The notes below the pieces were generated by a model. The model saw nothing but the letters and a program-made list of their open reading frames with translations, ran no database searches and had not been told where the DNA came from. A program made the position numbers and the translations under genes. A stretch of DNA of 64,000 bases, taken from positions 1 through 64,000 of IMG/VR virus record IMGVR_UViG_3300033429_000001; one strand, given 5' to 3'. Positions 4,740-44,732 of the stretch are shown one piece after another (position 1 is the first letter of the stretch; the number at the start of each line of letters is the position of its first letter). This DNA comes from a virus.

Positions 4740-4961
4740 ATGGAAAATAAAATACCTGAAATTTTGAGCGATAGGGGTCTAACTATCTCCGACCTACACG
4801 CCATGATAATTCGAGGGGGTGACAGATTTAGCTATACTGGCCTGCTTGAATTAGCCAAGCCAACTGCTGGGCCATTGGCCGATGGTGTAAAGATCGGCAC
4901 ATTAAGAAAGATTGCTTTTGCATTGGGCGTAAAGGTCAGGGATTTGATCGGGGAAGAATGA
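4740..4961 (+). CDS. Cro/CI-type (XRE) repressor
   Basis: 73 residues. The helix-turn-helix covers about residues 5-70: a first helix (IPEILSDRGLTISDLHAMI), a stretch resembling the recognition-helix region, and a C-terminal helix ending in RKIAFALGVKVRDLIGEE, the pattern of the XRE family. There is no peptidase or dimerisation domain, so it is Cro-sized. An in-frame ATG at 4722 lies inside the -10 box and cannot be used by this promoter. I infer control of the divergent early promoters. Its stop overlaps the next short ORF (ATGA). Confidence 0.85.
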   Translation: MENKIPEILSDRGLTISDLHAMIIRGGDRFSYTGLLELAKPTAGPLADGVKIGTLRKIAFALGVKVRDLIGEE

Positions 4962-9991: not shown

Positions 9992-10051
9992 TTTTGATTT
10001 ATAATATCTGTACTTAACAAATCGAGTTTGGCGACTCGTAACCCAGGACAG

Positions 10052-10144
10052 AAACCGCTTTTTTGGGGTTTCTATTTGTCAACCTGTTACCTGGACAGGT
10101 CGCCAACTAGAGACAAGTAGAAACCCCACAGGGGCGGTTTTTTG
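10052..10144 (+). terminator. Long nested hairpin terminator or attenuator
   Basis: AAACCGC (10052-10058) pairs with GCGGTTT (10134-10140); inside it 10065-10080 pairs with 10112-10127 over 16 bp with one G-U; CCTGT/ACAGG closes the centre; T residues follow. Upstream GGCGAC (10030-10035) can instead pair with GTCGCC (10099-10104), which would disturb the central hairpin. The architecture resembles the element at 23459-23538. The remainder of 9992-10261 has no gene; the next gene starts at 10262. Confidence 0.6.
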
Positions 10145-10261
10145 TTTCCATAAAAGTTAGAAAGGCTAAGATTTTGCCCACCTCAAAGCCTGGATTAAAG
10201 CAACGGGGACAGATTGTTATTATTGGCTAGAGAAGGCAGAGGTTAAGTCAAGGGATGAATC

Positions 10262-11074
10262 ATGAGCGGTAAAATAATGGGAATTGCCTGGGAGGGCAAA
10301 CTTCCCCAAAATGAGAAATTTGTACTTTTAGCCTATGCCGATCACGCAGATCATGAAGGCAATGGGATATTTCCCTCAATTGGGTTAATAGCCTGGAAAA
10401 CTGGTTACAGTACCAGGAATGTGACTAGAATAAAGCAGGGTTTAATCAAAAAAGGCATTCTAGTTCAGACGGGCACAAAAGACAGCGGGACGCAGATATA
10501 CAGAATAGACACAGAAAAGATTCCAAAGTTGCCTGATAGAAAACGCAATTTTTTAAGTAGTGACAATTTGTCACCCCATGACAATTTGTCACCCCCCCCT
10601 GACACCCGTGTCACCCCCCCCCTGACACCCGTGTCACCCCCCCATGACATAGCTATGTCACCCGAACCGTCATTAACCACCAAAGAAACGTCAGGGAACC
10701 AGCCCCCTAAAAATCCCTCAAAATACACCACCCAACAACTCCTTTTCGGCAAGCTGGCCCTAATTTGCAAAATCGACCTCGACCTGATGACCCCCAACCA
10801 AGAATCCGTCCTTACCAACACCTCCACCCGTCTCGACAAGGCCGGCGTTCAGCCTGACCAAATAGATTCATTTGCCACCTGGTGGGACGCCAATGACTGG
10901 CGCGGCCAAAAGGGGAGTCCGCCGACGCCGGGGCAAGTAATTGAAACCTGGGGCCAGTTCAAGGCGAGCCAGGGGCCGGGAAAGAAAAGAGGTCAACGTT
11001 CGTTCAGTAAAGAGGAGTTGGCAACCATCGAGCGGTTACGGGCGATGGATGAGAAAACAGCGTTCAGGATGTGA
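10262..11074 (+). CDS. Phage replication initiator (HTH, lambda O-like role)
   Basis: 270 residues; AAGGGA precedes the ATG. Residues 1-85 form a winged-helix DNA-binding domain of the kind found in phage replisome organisers (NEKFVLLAYADHADHEGNGIF...GYSTRNVTRIKQGLIKKG). A Pro/Ser/Thr-rich linker (residues 100-150) is encoded by five palindromic iterons (10561-10660). The C-terminal part resembles domains that contact helicase loader or helicase. Upstream of DnaB in the same direction. I infer origin recognition within its own gene, as in lambda O. Confidence 0.75.
   Translation: MSGKIMGIAWEGKLPQNEKFVLLAYADHADHEGNGIFPSIGLIAWKTGYSTRNVTRIKQGLIKKGILVQTGTKDSGTQIYRIDTEKIPKLPDRKRNFLSSDNLSPHDNLSPPPDTRVTPPLTPVSPPHDIAMSPEPSLTTKETSGNQPPKNPSKYTTQQLLFGKLALICKIDLDLMTPNQESVLTNTSTRLDKAGVQPDQIDSFATWWDANDWRGQKGSPPTPGQVIETWGQFKASQGPGKKRGQRSFSKEELATIERLRAMDEKTAFRM
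10561..10660. other. Iteron array, probable replication origin
   Basis: Five palindromes of the form TGACA...TGTCA start at 10561, 10579, 10600, 10623 and 10645: two TGACAATTTGTCA, two TGACACCCGTGTCA and one TGACATAGCTATGTCA. Their arms change together while the ends stay fixed, and they are separated by runs of C. Spacing is 18-23 bp, about two helical turns. An AT-rich stretch (10541-10557) adjoins on the left and could be the unwinding element. The location inside the initiator gene is that of lambda ori. Confidence 0.75.
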
Positions 11075-11096: not shown

Positions 11097-11342
11097 ATGG
11101 ATACTCAAGAAATGGAACAACAATATTGTGAGGACAACCACTGCAAAAAATGCGGACTGTTCCACGGATTGATCGGAATAATCAATGAGCAGCAGGAATT
11201 GATTAACCAGCTTATTGACGAACGTCCGAAAACGGAAAACACTAAAGAGATTAAGGACGCGCTAAACCGAATTATCGGAAAAACGGAAACAGTACGCAAC
11301 CAGGCAGGCTTTTTTGCGTTGGGGCCAGGGGAGCTTGATTGA
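11097..11342 (+). CDS. Hypothetical protein, shorter member of duplicated pair
   Basis: 81 residues; GAGGAG precedes the ATG at 11097. Shares its central part (KKCGLFHGLIGIINEQQELI...ERPKTE) with the protein at 7147-7491; here the N-terminus is short and has a CxxNHCxxC cluster. Overlaps the next ATG (TGATG). Function unknown. Confidence 0.65.
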   Translation: MDTQEMEQQYCEDNHCKKCGLFHGLIGIINEQQELINQLIDERPKTENTKEIKDALNRIIGKTETVRNQAGFFALGPGELD

Positions 11343-12130
11343 TGAATGAACTCGCCCTCTTCGCCGGTGCAGGCGGCGGTCTGCTGGCCACTCACCACCT
11401 GCTTGGCTGGCGCTGCGTTGGCTACGTGGAAATGGCTGAATACACTTGTAAGGTGTTGGAGGCAAGAATCAATGACGGACTATTGTCCAAAGCACCAATC
11501 TTTCAGATGCACACCAAAGACTTTATCCGACTCGGACTCGCTGAAAAATATCGAGGCGTGGCTGACGTCATTACTGCGGGATTTCCCTGTCAGCCGTTCG
11601 CAATTGGAGGCAAACGGCGAGGCGCTAACGATGACCGCAACGCCTGGCCCGATACCATTCGCATTATTAGAGAAGTCAAGCCGCAATGGGTTTTCCTGGA
11701 AAACTCTCCAAACCTCCTTTCAGTTCAGCATCAAGGGACAACTCCCCCCTACATTCAGCAGATCATTGGAGAGTTGGCCTCAAGCGGGTATGTGGGACGA
11801 TGGGGCTGCCTATCGGCTTCTACTTTGGGAGCCGACCACAAACGGAAACGGGTTTGGATTGTTGCCCACGCCATTGGCCAGGGACGGAAAATCATTCTAC
11901 GTGGTCACACGCAAAGCAGCCAAGCGACGAGTTATGCGCCAGAAGCCATTGAAACAACTCCATTGGATACACTATGGAGTCGTTTATCACGACTTGAGGA
12001 AAGGCTGGGCGAACCCTCGGTTCTCCGAGATGATGATGCTCTGGCCCATCGGGTGGACCGACTTGAAGCCGCTGGACAAGGCCAAGTTCCAGCAGTGGTT
12101 GCAGAAGCTTGGCGGTTGCTGATGGAGTAG
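11342..12130 (+). CDS. dcm: DNA (cytosine-5) methyltransferase
   Basis: 262 residues. Motif I is LALFAGAGGG (residues 4-13), motif IV is GFPCQPFAIGG with the catalytic Cys of PCQ, motif VI is ENSP, motif VIII is HKRKRVW, and motif X is GQGQVPAVVAEAWRLL near the C-terminus. It transfers a methyl group from SAM to C5 of cytosine, probably protecting phage DNA from host restriction. At 262 residues the target-recognition domain is short. A second long frame (11346-12122) runs through almost the whole gene and also looks protein-like. Confidence 0.9.
   Translation: MNELALFAGAGGGLLATHHLLGWRCVGYVEMAEYTCKVLEARINDGLLSKAPIFQMHTKDFIRLGLAEKYRGVADVITAGFPCQPFAIGGKRRGANDDRNAWPDTIRIIREVKPQWVFLENSPNLLSVQHQGTTPPYIQQIIGELASSGYVGRWGCLSASTLGADHKRKRVWIVAHAIGQGRKIILRGHTQSSQATSYAPEAIETTPLDTLWSRLSRLEERLGEPSVLRDDDALAHRVDRLEAAGQGQVPAVVAEAWRLLME
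11346..12122 (+). CDS. Overlapping frame with methyltransferase-associated motifs
   Basis: A 258-residue frame lies inside the C5 methyltransferase gene (+1 relative to it). From about residue 65 on, its translation (SWKTLQTSF..., SLESWPQAGM, GLLPTPLARDGK, NPRFSEMMMLWPIGWTDLKPL) resembles a protein family often found next to phage C5 methyltransferases. Either both frames are translated or the resemblance arises because that family overlaps the methyltransferase in other genomes too. No ribosome site of its own is clear. Confidence 0.35.
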   Translation: MNSPSSPVQAAVCWPLTTCLAGAALATWKWLNTLVRCWRQESMTDYCPKHQSFRCTPKTLSDSDSLKNIEAWLTSLLRDFPVSRSQLEANGEALTMTATPGPIPFALLEKSSRNGFSWKTLQTSFQFSIKGQLPPTFSRSLESWPQAGMWDDGAAYRLLLWEPTTNGNGFGLLPTPLARDGKSFYVVTRKAAKRRVMRQKPLKQLHWIHYGVVYHDLRKGWANPRFSEMMMLWPIGWTDLKPLDKAKFQQWLQKLGGC

Positions 12131-12275
12131 CAGCGCCCGCCCCTATTCTCGGGGTCGGGTCGCCTAGAGAGGGCCGAGCGCAGCAGGGCGGGAGGCGGGG
12201 TTTGACGGGGAATTTTTTCTAACACGATTGCTGAAACCACTAGAATACGCCATAGCGCAAAAGGAGATCAAAATA

Positions 12276-13745
12276 ATGACAACCAAAAACCAAAAACAAT
12301 TACCCGCTGTAGTTCCTGACAAGCTACAGCCCCACAACGTGGAGGCTGAGGAGGCGGTGATCGGCTCGCTACTCATCGACCCGGACGCCATTATCCGGGT
12401 GGCTACGTTCCTGAACGGCCCGGATTTCTTCATTGAGCGACACGGCATGGTCTTTGACGCGATTCAGGCGTTGAGCGCCCGCAATCAGCCCGCTGACCTG
12501 GTTACTCTGGCCGATGAGTTAGAGCGCCGGGGGGAGCTGCGGGAGGTTGGAGGGGGGGCTTATTTGACGAGCCTTATCAATCAAACTCCAACCTCGATTC
12601 ACGTGGAATATTACGGGCGTATTGTTGAGCGCTGCGCTGTCCTGCGGCGGCTGATAAATGCGGCAGGCCAGATTTCCAGATTGGCCTACCGGGATCAGGA
12701 GGCTGACGCTATGGAGGTGGTTAATCGGGCCGAGGAGATCATTTTTAATGTGTCGCCTGGCGGGGACAAACATGGGTTACAGCATGTAAGTGTAGCGGTG
12801 CAGGAGCTACTAGATCAAGTAAATTATTTACAAAATCATAAGGGCCAGGTTGTGGGGCTACCCACCGGCCTTACTGACCTGGACAAGCTGATAGGCGGCT
12901 TGCAGCGTTCAGATATGGTCGTGGTGGCAGGTAGACCGGGGATGGGAAAATCGAGTCTTTCCCTGAATGTAGCCCACCATGCGACCCGGAAATTAAACAA
13001 GCGAGTAGCTATTTTTAGCCTGGAAATGTCAAAAGTTCAGTTAGTGCAGCGGCTAGTCAGCGCAGAGACGGGTATTGATAGTTTTCGTATTCGCGTGGGT
13101 GACATCCGAGGGAATGAATGGCCGACATTTATAGCAGCGTCTAAGATAATCCACGACGCGCCTATTTTCATTGACGACACCCCGGCTATCTCGGCGATGG
13201 AGCTTAGGGCCAAAGCTCGCCGTTTGCATGCCGAGTATGGCCTTGATTTGCTCATTGTGGACTACCTACAACTGATGACTGGCGACCGCAAAAGCGAGAA
13301 TCGGCAACAGGAGATTAGCTATATCTCACGCTCGATCAAGGCCCTGGCCAGAGAGTTGAATATCCCGATTCTTGCTTTGAGTCAATTGTCAAGGGAGTGT
13401 GAGAAGCGGCATGACAAGCGGCCACACTTGAGCGATTTGAGAGACTCCGGAAGCATCGAGCAGGATAGCGACGTGGTTATCTTTATCTATCGTGATGACG
13501 TTTACAATCCTGATACTGAATTTCCAGACCTGGCCGAGCTTATAGTGGGGAAACATCGAGGCGGGCCGACAGGTATGTTCTCTGTGTATTTCCGTAAGCC
13601 GCTTTGCCAGTTTGTTGATCTGGAAATCCATCACCAACAACTTGAACCCGCCCCCGGCACGCCGGCAGCCAACGGCAACGGGCGCGGGCCTGCGGGGCCT
13701 GCGGTGACTGGGAACGGGACGATTGTCAGGGAAAAGAGGTTGTAA
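12276..13745 (+). CDS. dnaB: Replicative DNA helicase, DnaB-type
   Basis: 489 residues from the ATG at 12276, which has AAGGAG eight bases upstream. The N-terminal DnaB domain (residues 15-120, with QPHNVEAEEAVIGSLL) is followed by the RecA-like core: Walker A GRPGMGKSS near residue 220, Walker B LLIVDYLQLM, ALSQLSRECEKR and the DLRDSGSIEQDSDVV motif. The hexamer unwinds DNA at the fork. A Pro/Gly-rich tail ends the protein. No helicase loader gene is recognised; the initiator at 10262 may act as one. Upstream, 12131-12275 holds GC-rich inverted repeats only. Confidence 0.95.
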   Translation: MTTKNQKQLPAVVPDKLQPHNVEAEEAVIGSLLIDPDAIIRVATFLNGPDFFIERHGMVFDAIQALSARNQPADLVTLADELERRGELREVGGGAYLTSLINQTPTSIHVEYYGRIVERCAVLRRLINAAGQISRLAYRDQEADAMEVVNRAEEIIFNVSPGGDKHGLQHVSVAVQELLDQVNYLQNHKGQVVGLPTGLTDLDKLIGGLQRSDMVVVAGRPGMGKSSLSLNVAHHATRKLNKRVAIFSLEMSKVQLVQRLVSAETGIDSFRIRVGDIRGNEWPTFIAASKIIHDAPIFIDDTPAISAMELRAKARRLHAEYGLDLLIVDYLQLMTGDRKSENRQQEISYISRSIKALARELNIPILALSQLSRECEKRHDKRPHLSDLRDSGSIEQDSDVVIFIYRDDVYNPDTEFPDLAELIVGKHRGGPTGMFSVYFRKPLCQFVDLEIHHQQLEPAPGTPAANGNGRGPAGPAVTGNGTIVREKRL

Positions 13746-14141: not shown

Positions 14142-14483
14142 ATGACCGTCAAATGGGACGCAGAAAACGAAAACGGGACAACTATTTACAGACTGCGACC
14201 TGAATTTTGCCACCAGGAGGTAGAGGTTACGATTCGTCCGGTGTTTACTCACTGGACGTTTGTCCTGAGAAATCGCCGCAACTGTCCAATGAGCAACGAT
14301 GAGATTTCGCGCGAGGCCGGGGAGTATGAGCCGGGCACGTTGTACGGTGGGCGGCCTGACACCTGGAAAAATTTGCAGACGGCCAAGGCCAAAGCGCAGG
14401 GAGCGGCCGGGGATCGGTTGTATCTATCACGCTGTGGGATAACGTTCAAAAATGGGAAGTGTGAAAATGGAAACGGCAGGTAG
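14142..14483 (+). CDS. Hypothetical protein
   Basis: 113 residues; GCGAGGAACA precedes the ATG. The N-terminal half looks like a beta domain (KWDAENENGTTIYRLR..VEVTIRPVFTHWTFV); the C-terminal half is basic and helical. Overlaps the upstream part of the adenine methyltransferase frame. No family recognised. Confidence 0.55.
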   Translation: MTVKWDAENENGTTIYRLRPEFCHQEVEVTIRPVFTHWTFVLRNRRNCPMSNDEISREAGEYEPGTLYGGRPDTWKNLQTAKAKAQGAAGDRLYLSRCGITFKNGKCENGNGR

Positions 14484-14493
14484 GGAGAGCAAA

Positions 14494-15201
14494 ATGAACG
14501 AGTTTCAAATCATCGTCGCCGATCCTCCGTGGCGCTTTAAAAATTGGTCAATGTCTCAATTAACCCAACGCGGGGAGAAATGGGCCAGGCGCAATGGTCG
14601 CAGCCCTTACCCGGTGATGACGACAGAGGATATTTGTAAAATTCCTGTTTGGGAAATTGCCGCAAAGGATTCATTGTTGTATCTGTGGGCTACGTGGCCT
14701 AAAATGATGGATGCTTTACAGGTGATGGACTCTTGGGGATTCGAGTACATCACCCAGGCATTCACCTGGATAAAACAGAATCCTTCCGGTTGCGGTTGGC
14801 ATTTCGGCCTGGGTTATTACACGCACGGGAATAGCGAAGTGGTTTTAATTGGGAAAAGGGGAAAAGGGGTCAAAAGAGTCGACAAAGGGGTTTCAAGCCT
14901 AGTGATCTACCCCAGAGGGCAGCACTCAGCCAAGCCGCCGACAGTCGCCAGTAGAATTGAGCGACTACACGGTGATGGTGTGCCGAGGGTTGAGTTATTC
15001 GCCCGCCGTCCTGTGACGGGGTGGTCAACTTGGGGGAATGAGGTAGAGCTATCCCCAGGAACGGAACCCCTTTGGGATTATGTTGCTCCCCCATACGAGG
15101 CCATTGTAGATGAAGATGAGTATAACGGCCTCCCTCCAGAACAGGAAGCAAATATGCCAAATGGGGCATATGAGCCGGGGGAGCAAATGTTGTTGGTTTG
15201 A
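14494..15201 (+). CDS. MT-A70 family adenine-N6 DNA methyltransferase
   Basis: 235 residues from the ATG at 14494 (GGGAGAGC upstream); a longer frame from 14452 is possible. The catalytic DPPW motif is at residues 10-13, followed by the MT-A70 pattern: EDICKIPVW, LYLWATWPKMMDALQVMDSWGFEY and a terminal HSAKPP motif with RIERLHGD. Phage members methylate adenine in DNA, usually as an anti-restriction or regulatory mark. It is downstream of the replication genes. Confidence 0.9.
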   Translation: MNEFQIIVADPPWRFKNWSMSQLTQRGEKWARRNGRSPYPVMTTEDICKIPVWEIAAKDSLLYLWATWPKMMDALQVMDSWGFEYITQAFTWIKQNPSGCGWHFGLGYYTHGNSEVVLIGKRGKGVKRVDKGVSSLVIYPRGQHSAKPPTVASRIERLHGDGVPRVELFARRPVTGWSTWGNEVELSPGTEPLWDYVAPPYEAIVDEDEYNGLPPEQEANMPNGAYEPGEQMLLV

Positions 15202-16991: not shown

Positions 16992-17498
16992 ATGAAGTTA
17001 AGTTTGATTTTGGTGAGTATCTTTGTTCTCATGTTTATGGTCAACCCATTCTTTATGCCGGTGATGGCTCAGGAGCAACCGGTGAGCCAATTCGAGTCAC
17101 CGGTTCCGCCCGTTGAAGAGCCAGAACCAGTTGCTCCTGGGATTGACTGGAAACAAATTCTCGATGACCTATTTGCTGGTGAGTCTATGGTTGAAGCGGT
17201 AGAACTGGCAATTGCGGCCTTACTGGGGCTGTTCGGCCTGGGTAATCTAACTCAGGTTATTGTCAATGCCCTCAAAAAGATAAACTGGGGCCTTTTGACG
17301 CTTGGGCAAAAGGAGAAGCTGGGTGGCGAGGTGGCCGAAGTTGTCGCTTATTTGGTGGCCGTCCTGCTGACATATGTCTCTACCAATTTTTTGCTGCCAT
17401 TGGCGGACAAGATAGACACGCTCGGCATCTTCGCAATTGGGGTGACAGTGTGGGCCTTTGCAAGGCAGATATACTTTAACAGAAAACGAAACGCCTAG
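16992..17498 (+). CDS. Exported multi-span membrane protein, holin candidate
   Basis: 168 residues; AGGAGG precedes the ATG. A signal peptide or first membrane segment (residues 3-26, ending VMAQEQP) is followed by a Pro/Glu-rich linker, an amphipathic helix, a hydrophobic helix (LAIAALLGLFGLGNLTQVIV) and two more spans (VVAYLVAVLLTYVSTNFLL; LGIFAIGVTVWAF), then a basic tail. The topology and the position before LysM and coiled-coil membrane genes fit a holin or lysis regulator. Confidence 0.6.
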   Translation: MKLSLILVSIFVLMFMVNPFFMPVMAQEQPVSQFESPVPPVEEPEPVAPGIDWKQILDDLFAGESMVEAVELAIAALLGLFGLGNLTQVIVNALKKINWGLLTLGQKEKLGGEVAEVVAYLVAVLLTYVSTNFLLPLADKIDTLGIFAIGVTVWAFARQIYFNRKRNA

Positions 17499-37182: not shown

Positions 37183-38811
37183 ATGCACATACACATAATC
37201 AGCCGTGACTACAAATCAGATAGAATCCTCTCCCGACTGGCTCAAATCCTGGCAGCCCAGCGCGGCTTTACTATTGCCGATGTACCCAACGCCGAAGCCG
37301 ACATCAATTACTTTTTTCCCTATCTCGAATATGACAAAAGTCGTGATTTCAATGCCACCAAGACCGCCGGTTGGTTCACGCACAAGGATACCAACCGCAA
37401 AGAGAAAGTGCCGATGTGGGAAATGGCGGCCAAGGCTGTTGACTTACGGTTGACCAGTGCGGCGATGTACCAAGAACAATTGGAGAAGTTTGGCCCGACC
37501 TCGTTGGTGACAGTACCCCTGGATCGGGAAAAGTTTAGCCCGACTAAAAAGGAGCCGCGCAAGAGGCTTGTCGTCGGCACCAGCGGTTACGTCTATCCCG
37601 AAGGCCGCAAGGGTGAGCAATTGATTACGCGACTCTTCCATGACCATGACCTTGACCTTGACCTGGTGGCCTCTGGTCGAGGCTGGCCAATCCCAACCAA
37701 TGAGTTTACCTGGGACAATATCCAAGAATTTTACCAGGGCCTTGACATCTATCTGTGTACGTCTTTAGTCGAGGGTATCGGGTATGGCCCAATTGAAGCT
37801 ATGGCCTGCGGGGTCCCGGTGGTGATTCCAACAGGGGTAGGCATCTTCGATGAGTTGCCAAACCTGGAAAATTTACACAGGTATGAGGCCGGCAACTATC
37901 AAGATATGAAGCGGGCCATCAAAGAGGCGTGGGACAGACTGAAGCAAGGGGCCTATAACCCCGAAAGCTTGCGCGGTGGTACCCTGAAATTTACAAATGA
38001 AGCCTGGATAAGCATACACCTGATGGCTTTTGAGGAAATGCTCTATGGAATACCGGAGGCAGGTGAATGTCCGAAGTGGAAGAAATCAGCGGGGGTCTAC
38101 TACGTGGCCTATGGTGATCCCTCGCGTGATTGTGCCCGACGAGCTATAAAAAGTTTCAAACAGCACATGCCTGACATCCCGGTGGCCCTGGCCAGTGACA
38201 ATCCGCTCAATGTTGGTGAGGACATTTTCATTGACAACATAGATGAGGATATTGGAGGCCGGTCAGTCAAAACCAAGATTTACGACCTGACCCCAAAAGA
38301 TTGGAATTATGTTTTGTACCTGGATGCCGACACTGAGATTACCGCAGACATCAGCTTTTTATTTCAGGCCCTTGAAGACGGTTGGGAGGCGGTATGGTGT
38401 ACCAACCCAGGCAAATATTCCATTCTCAGTTATGCCAAGCGTCCTGACTGCGAAGAAGAATTTAAGCTAACGCTTGATAAGGTTTCAGCGGCCAATGGCT
38501 CTGAAATTTTACAACTCAATGGCGGCGTCTTTGCTTTCCGGCGCAGCGAACGAACAGCCGCATTTTTCAGAGCATGGCATAATGAGTGGCAGCGGTATGG
38601 GGCCAGGGATCAAATGGCCCTTCATCGGGTACTGTACGACAACCCCATCAGACTGCTTGTGCTGGGGGTCGAGTGGAACACCTCGACCCGGTATATCGAG
38701 GCTGAAAGAACAGCGGGTATTTTGCATTACCAGATGTCAGCCAGGCGGTGGCGGGGGCCGATCAATGGGCGGCTAGATAGTCAGGAAGCTTGGTCTAAGG
38801 TAGAGGTGTAA
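37183..38811 (+). CDS. Two-domain glycosyltransferase (GT-B plus GT-A)
   Basis: 542 residues. Residues 1-290 are a GT4-like GT-B domain (LVVGTSGYVYPEGRKGEQL; IYLCTSLVEGIGYGPIEAMACGVPVVIP). Residues 305-540 are a GT-A domain like 36407-37012, with DxD in VLYLDADTEI, LQLNGGVFAFRRSERTAAFF and RDQMALHRVLYD. The fusion should add two sugars in sequence. Confidence 0.85.
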   Translation: MHIHIISRDYKSDRILSRLAQILAAQRGFTIADVPNAEADINYFFPYLEYDKSRDFNATKTAGWFTHKDTNRKEKVPMWEMAAKAVDLRLTSAAMYQEQLEKFGPTSLVTVPLDREKFSPTKKEPRKRLVVGTSGYVYPEGRKGEQLITRLFHDHDLDLDLVASGRGWPIPTNEFTWDNIQEFYQGLDIYLCTSLVEGIGYGPIEAMACGVPVVIPTGVGIFDELPNLENLHRYEAGNYQDMKRAIKEAWDRLKQGAYNPESLRGGTLKFTNEAWISIHLMAFEEMLYGIPEAGECPKWKKSAGVYYVAYGDPSRDCARRAIKSFKQHMPDIPVALASDNPLNVGEDIFIDNIDEDIGGRSVKTKIYDLTPKDWNYVLYLDADTEITADISFLFQALEDGWEAVWCTNPGKYSILSYAKRPDCEEEFKLTLDKVSAANGSEILQLNGGVFAFRRSERTAAFFRAWHNEWQRYGARDQMALHRVLYDNPIRLLVLGVEWNTSTRYIEAERTAGILHYQMSARRWRGPINGRLDSQEAWSKVEV

Positions 38812-43589: not shown

Positions 43590-44732
43590 ATGACCATTCA
43601 AGTATTCAAACCTAACTTTGATAAGGTAGAAGTCGAAGCGGTAAGAGAAGTACTGCTTTCCGGTTGGGTCGGTCTGGGTCCAAAAACCGATTTATTCGAG
43701 CGAGAGTTTGCCAACTATGTGGGCGCATCGTATGCGATAGGGGTCAATAGCGGCACATCTGCCCTCCACCTATCTCTAGCCGCGCTAGGCATTGGCCCCG
43801 GCGATGAGGTTTTAGTACCAACCATCACCTTTGCATCGACAGCGCATGCGGTGAGCTATTGCGGAGCCACGCCGGTTTTTGTGGACATTGAGGCCGATAC
43901 GCTCAATGTAGATGTTGATAAGCTTAAGCAATACGTCACACAAAATACCAAAGCGATTATTCCGGTTCATTTTGGTGGCCATTGCTGCAACATGGAATCC
44001 ATCTGGAGATTCGCCACGGCACATGATCTATTTGTAATTGAGGATGCGGCACATGCCTGTGGCAGCAAGCACGATACAAGGATGGTCGGCTCTCTGCCCA
44101 GCGAAACCACCTGCTTTAGTTTTCACGCCGTCAAGAATCTGGCCTGTGGCGACGGTGGGATGATTACCACCAGTCGGCTAGACATCGCTCAGGCGTTGCG
44201 AAAACTTAGATGGTGCGGCATTGACAAATCGACCTGGGACCGGGTTGGTGAGTACCGGGCAGCGATCAATACACAGTATGCAAAATATAGCTGGTATTAT
44301 GAAATCCATCAGCTTGGCTTCAAGGCTCACATGAATGACATCACCGCTGCCATCGGGTTGGTGCAACTTGGCAAGCTAGACGGGGCCAACGAGCGGCGGC
44401 GGAAAATTGCCAGGCGTTACACAGATGAGTTGTCTAGCCTGGATTGGCTGACCTGTCCCGGTGTGTTAGATGTAGATTACGGCAAAAGCGCATGGCACAA
44501 TTATGTAATCAAAACCGACAGGCGCGATGAGTTAAACACTTATCTCAAGGAATTCGACATTATGACCGGCGTTCATTACATGCCGTTGCACTTGCAGCCG
44601 TACTATCGGACAACCTCCGCTTTGCCGGTTGCCGAGAGAGTATGGCCCAAACTATTGACCTTGCCTCTTTATCCGTCACTGACTGATGATGAGGTAGGGC
44701 AGGTTATTCGTAGGATTAAGGCGTTTCAATGA
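43590..44732 (+). CDS. DegT/DnrJ/EryC1 sugar aminotransferase
   Basis: 380 residues. PLP enzyme that aminates keto-deoxy sugars: NSGTSALHLSLAALGIGPGDEVLVP, VIEDAAHACGSK, and SFHAVKNLACGDGG with the Schiff-base lysine. Stop overlaps the formyltransferase start. Makes a nucleotide amino-sugar for the glycan module. Confidence 0.95.
   Translation: MTIQVFKPNFDKVEVEAVREVLLSGWVGLGPKTDLFEREFANYVGASYAIGVNSGTSALHLSLAALGIGPGDEVLVPTITFASTAHAVSYCGATPVFVDIEADTLNVDVDKLKQYVTQNTKAIIPVHFGGHCCNMESIWRFATAHDLFVIEDAAHACGSKHDTRMVGSLPSETTCFSFHAVKNLACGDGGMITTSRLDIAQALRKLRWCGIDKSTWDRVGEYRAAINTQYAKYSWYYEIHQLGFKAHMNDITAAIGLVQLGKLDGANERRRKIARRYTDELSSLDWLTCPGVLDVDYGKSAWHNYVIKTDRRDELNTYLKEFDIMTGVHYMPLHLQPYYRTTSALPVAERVWPKLLTLPLYPSLTDDEVGQVIRRIKAFQ

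Follow-up and report, generated by a model that had tools for sequence, protein, structure and literature searches.

What function do five closely spaced palindromes serve inside the coding sequence of a phage gene? The window considered here, 64,000 nt in length, is part of a virus record of 72,741 bases, and the terminase, portal, capsid and tape-measure genes present in this record (PHROG matches) identify the virus as a tailed phage. The palindromes, of the form TGACA-N(3,3,4,4,6)-TGTCA, occupy positions 10561-10660, over codons for the disordered linker of a predicted replication initiator. With a probability that we put at roughly 0.86, they belong to a theta-type replication origin embedded in the phage's own initiator gene, in which the initiator, the array and a second repeat, hereafter element B, would act together. 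The first-pass annotation had predicted an origin in this gene, and this is still the best explanation of the locus, given the O-like and HTH_36 homology of the protein, the arrays found across its family, the covariation of the recognition helix with the repeat and the precedent of the pPR9 mini-replicon.

The gene (10262-11074, + strand) encodes a protein of 270 aa that matches phrog_391 ('replication initiation O-like', 3e-13) and the Pfam HTH_36 domain (PF13730, 2e-9; 37.5 bits for a gathering cut-off of 25), so that the palindromes do lie within an HTH replication gene, as had been claimed. According to AlphaFold, a winged-HTH DNA-binding domain spans codons 1-88 (10262-10525, + strand; block means of at least 92 across residues 1-90), with a recognition helix at residues 51-63 that includes Arg56 (10427-10429, + strand), whose identity varies in step with the triplet of the iterons (see below). 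It is followed by the disordered linker (codons 90-150, 10529-10711, + strand; block means 49-59), whose DNA carries the candidate origin, and by a helical C-terminal domain (codons 154-236, 10721-10969, + strand). A single-protein scan of viral contigs returned no close relatives of the whole protein, and a PDB sequence search gave 0 matches; the best PDB fold matches are weak (E 3e-3) and bear the titles 'N-Terminal domain of DNA binding protein', 'Structure of initiator' and 'Structure of Rep-DNA complex'. We take them to be RepA_N structures. The same phage encodes a DnaB-type replicative helicase (12228-13745, + strand; Pfam match 3e-101), and a P-like helicase loader was not identified in the window.

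Iteron 1 is GTGACAATTTGTCAC (10560-10574, i.e., 15 bp with its flanks, the core being 10561-10573) and iteron 2 is TGACAATTTGTCA (10579-10591), both with a 3-nt spacer. Iterons 3 (10600-10613) and 4 (10623-10636) both read TGACACCCGTGTCA, with a 4-nt spacer, while iteron 5, TGACATAGCTATGTCA (10645-10660), has a 6-nt spacer with an AGCT centre and is of the terminal type described below. The core lengths are 13, 13, 14, 14 and 16 bp and the centres lie 18, 21.5, 23 and 23 bp apart, in agreement with the position, the lengths and the recurrence every 18-23 bp that had been reported. No other TGACA-N2-8-TGTCA occurs in the 64 kb, and arrays of at least three such palindromes were found in 0 of 60 Markov-shuffled windows; single-strand folding of the region is also far from chance (z -9.7 as DNA and -7.7 as RNA). 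Over 23 bp iteron 4 repeats iteron 3 exactly, but the two are read in different frames, with PPDTRVTPP (iteron 3) and PLTPVSPP (iteron 4) as their translations, which argues that the repeat is kept as DNA and not as peptide. The centres had also been described as co-varying; this is true within the window, but across the family complementary spacer pairs are roughly as frequent as expected from base composition, with the exception of the 6-nt class, which is mostly xAGCTx.

Each of the palindromes ends in TGTCACCC, which gives five direct TGTCACCC(C) units on the + strand (GGGTGACA on the - strand) between 10569 and 10664, starting at 10569, 10587, 10609, 10632 and 10656, the last of which reads TGTCACCCG. 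The repeat unit of the window, GGGTG followed by ACA, corresponds to TGTCACCC on the + strand and includes the C runs; these runs are thus present as first described, but they belong to the repeat (TGTCACCC being GGGTGACA on the other strand) and are not mere separators. In many homologues GGGTGACA is the best-repeated 8-mer, in others this is GGGTGCCA, GGGTGTAA, GGGGTGAA or reverse complements of GGGTGCA(A/G), and some subfamilies display core variants, e.g., GGGGCGAC or AAAGGGCG. C-run length varies in the family, where the minimal shared unit is GGGTG. As 46 of the 82 GGGTGACA sites in a set of 55 homologous genes chosen by protein only have no palindromic partner, the palindrome is optional and the direct repeat is the rule. 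Partnered sites of this set have a spacer of 3, 4 or 6 nt, never 5 (a 5-nt spacer occurs once among the 210 listed in a larger pattern-based set), and GGGTGACA units on the same strand lie 17-18 or 21-25 bp apart, distances of 19-20 bp being absent. Of note, two exact isolated TGTCACCCC sites are present outside the array, on the - strand (4816-4824 and 17439-17447), possibly by chance.

The end of the array has features of its own. Among arrays in which a 6-nt spacer occurs, the final palindrome has a spacer of this size in 17/17 cases, which are not independent since some of the loci are close relatives. Most of the 6-nt spacers read xAGCTx, as does that of iteron 5. AGCT-centred terminal iterons are found with TGCAA and with TGTCA half-sites, and GACATAGCTATGTC recurs in locus L132 with a different outer half-site and in a different frame.

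Nearly every homologue of the initiator carries a repeat array at the corresponding position, and these arrays are lineage-specific. When the 55 non-redundant genes, picked by protein alone, were compared with synonymous-codon shuffles, an array (at least three copies of an 8-mer) was significant at nt 240-480, directly past the HTH, in 48 of them, and the same test gave 1/55 at nt 0-240 and 2/55 at nt 480-720 in the neighbouring segments. When 2.9 million viral contigs were scanned at the DNA level for the iteron pattern, 85 of 119 loci, among the matches listed, lay inside HTH-initiator ORFs, which account for about 7% of the bases retrieved for these matches; the C-run strand is sense to the gene in 53 of the 85 listed loci and antisense in 32. 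This count was made with an HTH profile limited to residues 1-75, because the first HTH profile, which had given 88, held linker residues encoded by the array and hence a possible circularity; the figures were nearly unchanged. Fractions from the pattern scans, here and below, describe the matches listed, in which redundancy was reduced and some remains.

Protein and repeat are linked by covariation. For each gene, the commonest triplet after GGGTG (at least three copies) was set against the HTH alignment, for 116 proteins after an 80% identity filter. Across these homologues the unit is GGGTG+NNN, and a single column stands out, that of the window's Arg56 in the recognition helix: in identity-matched pairs, sharing of the triplet raises identity at column 56 by 0.77, compared with 0.24 for the next column and a column mean of about 0. 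The pairs of triplet and residue are ACA-Arg (60/60), TCA-Arg (5/5), AAC-Lys (5/5) and CAA-Tyr (9/9), and Arg accompanies a middle C of the triplet in 70/74 cases and a middle A in 1/36. On the best HTH tree, counting all branches, both traits change about 22 times; this tree is poorly supported, and independent pairs on its well-supported branches number only three, concordant in nearly all pairings. The association of residue 56 with the triplet is, in our view, strong; how many independent events underlie it is uncertain, as the domain is short and only three pairs are supported. Since residue 56 tracks the triplet, the 10262 protein very probably binds the array, and the obvious reading of the pattern is that the arginine would face the guanine opposite the triplet's middle C.

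Directly 3' of the array lies element B, whose most strongly conserved copies in the family read AACCATCA and are 10-13 bp (typically about 11 bp) apart. In the window it spans 10665-10693 (+ strand) and is made of the degenerate copies AACCGTCA (10665), AACCACCA (10675) and AAACGTCA (10686), i.e., one AACC[AG]TCA and two imperfect copies. The 55 genes contain 53 copies of AACC[AG]TCA for 9.4 expected from synonymous shuffling (maximum 17), with 0 on the reverse strand, and these are read in all three frames. Three copies of AACCATCA were found at no fewer than 120 viral loci (at least 120), of which 79-80 among the matches listed are in HTH-initiator ORFs, all sense and every one with copies in mixed frames; three copies of a scrambled control octamer were found at 12 loci in the whole collection, 0 of them in HTH-initiator ORFs. 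In bacterial genomes, 100 of the 117 matches listed for three AACCATCA copies are simple tandem repeats, and the remaining 17 lie in initiator ORFs, all sense and mixed-frame.

The register between the two elements is also conserved. The junction CACCC-G-AACC of the last iteron with element B is intact in the window (10659-10668, + strand), and CACCC-N-AACC is present in 13/55 genes for a null mean of 1.6 (maximum 4); when this junction was used for scanning, 64-65 of 118 loci among the matches listed were in HTH-initiator ORFs, all sense. As many as 15 different half-site triplets occur over the 66 distinct junctions listed, indicating that half-sites change during divergence and that the junction and element B are retained. 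In addition, loci L218, L242, L318 and L319 carry 3-4 copies of AACCATCA over the linker of initiator-like genes that do not match HTH_36; L218 and L318 match DnaD-like or replication-initiation PHROGs, and L242 does so weakly. Element B is thus not tied to one initiator family. Nothing relevant on AACCATCA at phage origins, or on GGGTGACA in phage papers, was found in the open-licence literature.

An AT-rich tract adjoining the array had been noted as well. It does exist (10546-10559), but on the 5' side, where it is not conserved in the family, whereas AT content rises on the 3' side in 35 relatives: it peaks over the 40 bp that start with element B (0.54-0.59 versus 0.46 overall, a modest rise) and G is depleted to 0.07 in the first 20 bp, a profile due in part to the alignment of the sequences on this very motif. 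The 3' side of the array in the window is only about 50% AT. Element B, and not the 5' tract, would be the candidate for a family-wide unwinding or helicase-loading site. The GC-skew check that had been suggested gave no turning point at 10.6 kb, with the minimum near 4.1 kb.

Several features of the surrounding DNA were recorded in passing. Upstream of the initiator gene, a long near-perfect inverted repeat bounded by T runs (10045-10150; RNA fold of -52.4 kcal/mol, z -6.5) may act as a bidirectional terminator or encode a regulatory RNA; at gathering thresholds it matches no known RNA family in Rfam. The translation of the ORF next to the initiator (11339-12130) is similar to cytosine-5 DNA methyltransferases, judging by eye from a GFPCQPF-like motif, a methyltransferase of the MT-A70 type is found at 14452-15201, and glycosyltransferase-like and aminotransferase genes (37183-38811 and 43590-44732) lie among the phage structural genes.

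In the mechanism that we propose, the winged HTH at the N-terminus of the 10262 product would bind the GGGTGACA half-sites in the five iterons, Arg56 reading, to judge from the covariation, the guanine that pairs with the central C of ACA. The direct GGGTGACA units would serve as loading sites for initiators, to which the second half-site probably offers an extra contact of flexible spacing, and the bound initiators would assemble over 10560-10664. DNA opening or helicase loading would then take place 3' of the array, at the G-poor, strand-specific repeats from 10665, and the C-terminal domain may subsequently recruit the phage's DnaB helicase. The placement of the origin in codons for a disordered linker would make use of a segment that tolerates changes of sequence and frame.

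An array bound by the product of its own gene could also be an autoregulatory operator, through which the HTH protein blocks transcription of this gene, with no role in initiation. The covariation evidence for binding fits this equally well, as does the nature of the 10262 product; nevertheless, the array lies about 300 bp into the gene, a conserved strand-specific repeat adjoins it at a fixed junction, and both the PHROG annotation and the pPR9 mini-replicon favour replication, all of which makes an operator without a replication role unlikely, while the two roles could coexist. We regard it as less likely still that the palindromes function by forming hairpins in single-stranded DNA or in RNA, be it through mRNA structure, cruciforms or single-strand initiation: the unpartnered half-sites in relatives and the lack of covariation between spacer pairs speak against it, and palindrome excess is significant in just 12/55 genes versus 48/55 for direct repeats, even though the hairpins are very stable in the window and a variable loop length fits them. 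Separately from these readings of the array, the regularly spaced, C-rich AACCATCA repeats might have a role in Rho utilisation or another role at the RNA level.

That the repeats were selected for the peptide they encode, a Pro-rich PPxDxxxTP linker of which the DNA repeat would be a by-product, seems very improbable. The linker is indeed proline-rich and of low complexity, but identical DNA repeats are found in different frames, element B is read in all three of them, and synonymous shuffles abolish the repeats; a repeat at the peptide level was ruled out on account of the frame shifts and these shuffles. The variable run length around a minimal shared GGGTG and the covariation with Arg56 leave hardly any room for tandem-duplication debris or G-quadruplex-prone C/G runs of no specific function, which the recurrence of C8-C9 runs and the exact copying between iterons 3 and 4 might otherwise have suggested.

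The origin reading may extend beyond this phage. It is conceivable, at somewhat less than even odds, that the locus represents a very common modular class of origin, in which GGGTG and its triplet are read mainly by residue 56 and a fixed-register AACCATCA repeat is perhaps read by a common host or replisome factor, as the presence of AACCATCA in genes of other initiator types would suggest. If true, sequence alone would suffice to locate the origin in every phage, prophage or plasmid whose initiator is of the HTH_36 type, and to deduce its specificity (compatibility group) from GGGTG with its triplet and from residue 56. The AACCATCA repeat would then be a concrete candidate for strand opening or helicase loading, and since it occurs beside different iterons and in a few other initiator types, one may ask which factor recognises it. 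An origin inside the gene would also account for the transfer of DNA-binding domain and origin as one cassette, as reported for pPR9 (PMC5703833).

Among known systems, the lambda-like plan that had been proposed, with multiple direct iterons in the initiator gene, 3' of the DNA-binding domain, stands. The lambda ori in gene O follows the same plan, with the direct repeats ITN1-4, which are also palindromic; its AT-rich opening region lies on the 3' side, where opening is predicted in the window. A contrast had been drawn on the ground that the iterons of the window are palindromes, and this difference fails, since lambda iterons are palindromes themselves (TCCCTC...GAGGGA). The window differs from lambda by another repeat, by AACCATCA-type repeats instead of the lambda A-rich tract, and by variable half-site spacing, which is its unusual feature. 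In addition, lambda O is a PF04492 (Phage_rep_O) protein, whereas the window protein matches PF13730 only and not PF04492. The sequence AAAATCCCTCAAAAT (10710-10724), beside the array, shares TCCCTCAAAA with a lambda iteron, which we take as a coincidence.

The nearest experimental precedent is the staphylococcal plasmid pPR9, whose Rep has the same Pfam domain as the window protein, HTH_36 (pfam13730), at its N-terminus, and whose rep region replicates autonomously as a mini-replicon; a block of about 500 bp comprising the DNA-binding domain and the origin is exchanged as a module (PMC5703833). It differs in being a plasmid and in its pSK41-type C-terminal domain. The RepA_N initiator of staphylococcal pSK41 has, like the window protein, a winged-HTH N-terminus and a separate helical C-terminal domain, with an ori located centrally in rep, in linker-coding DNA; however, the window protein has no RepA_N Pfam match and its fold similarity is weak (E 3e-3). 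The oriL of phage SPP1, which lies inside gene 38 and combines direct repeats with an AT-rich unwinding element (PMC6316719), resembles the window by its direct repeats within the initiator gene, SPP1 having a second origin, oriR. From these comparisons, the predicted origin would work like the lambda type, and its protein belongs to the HTH_36 initiators, being by Pfam neither Phage_rep_O nor RepA_N. The locus is very probably an origin, whose lambda-like layout is known; what the hundreds of relatives bring out is a likely mode of recognition and a second conserved repeat.
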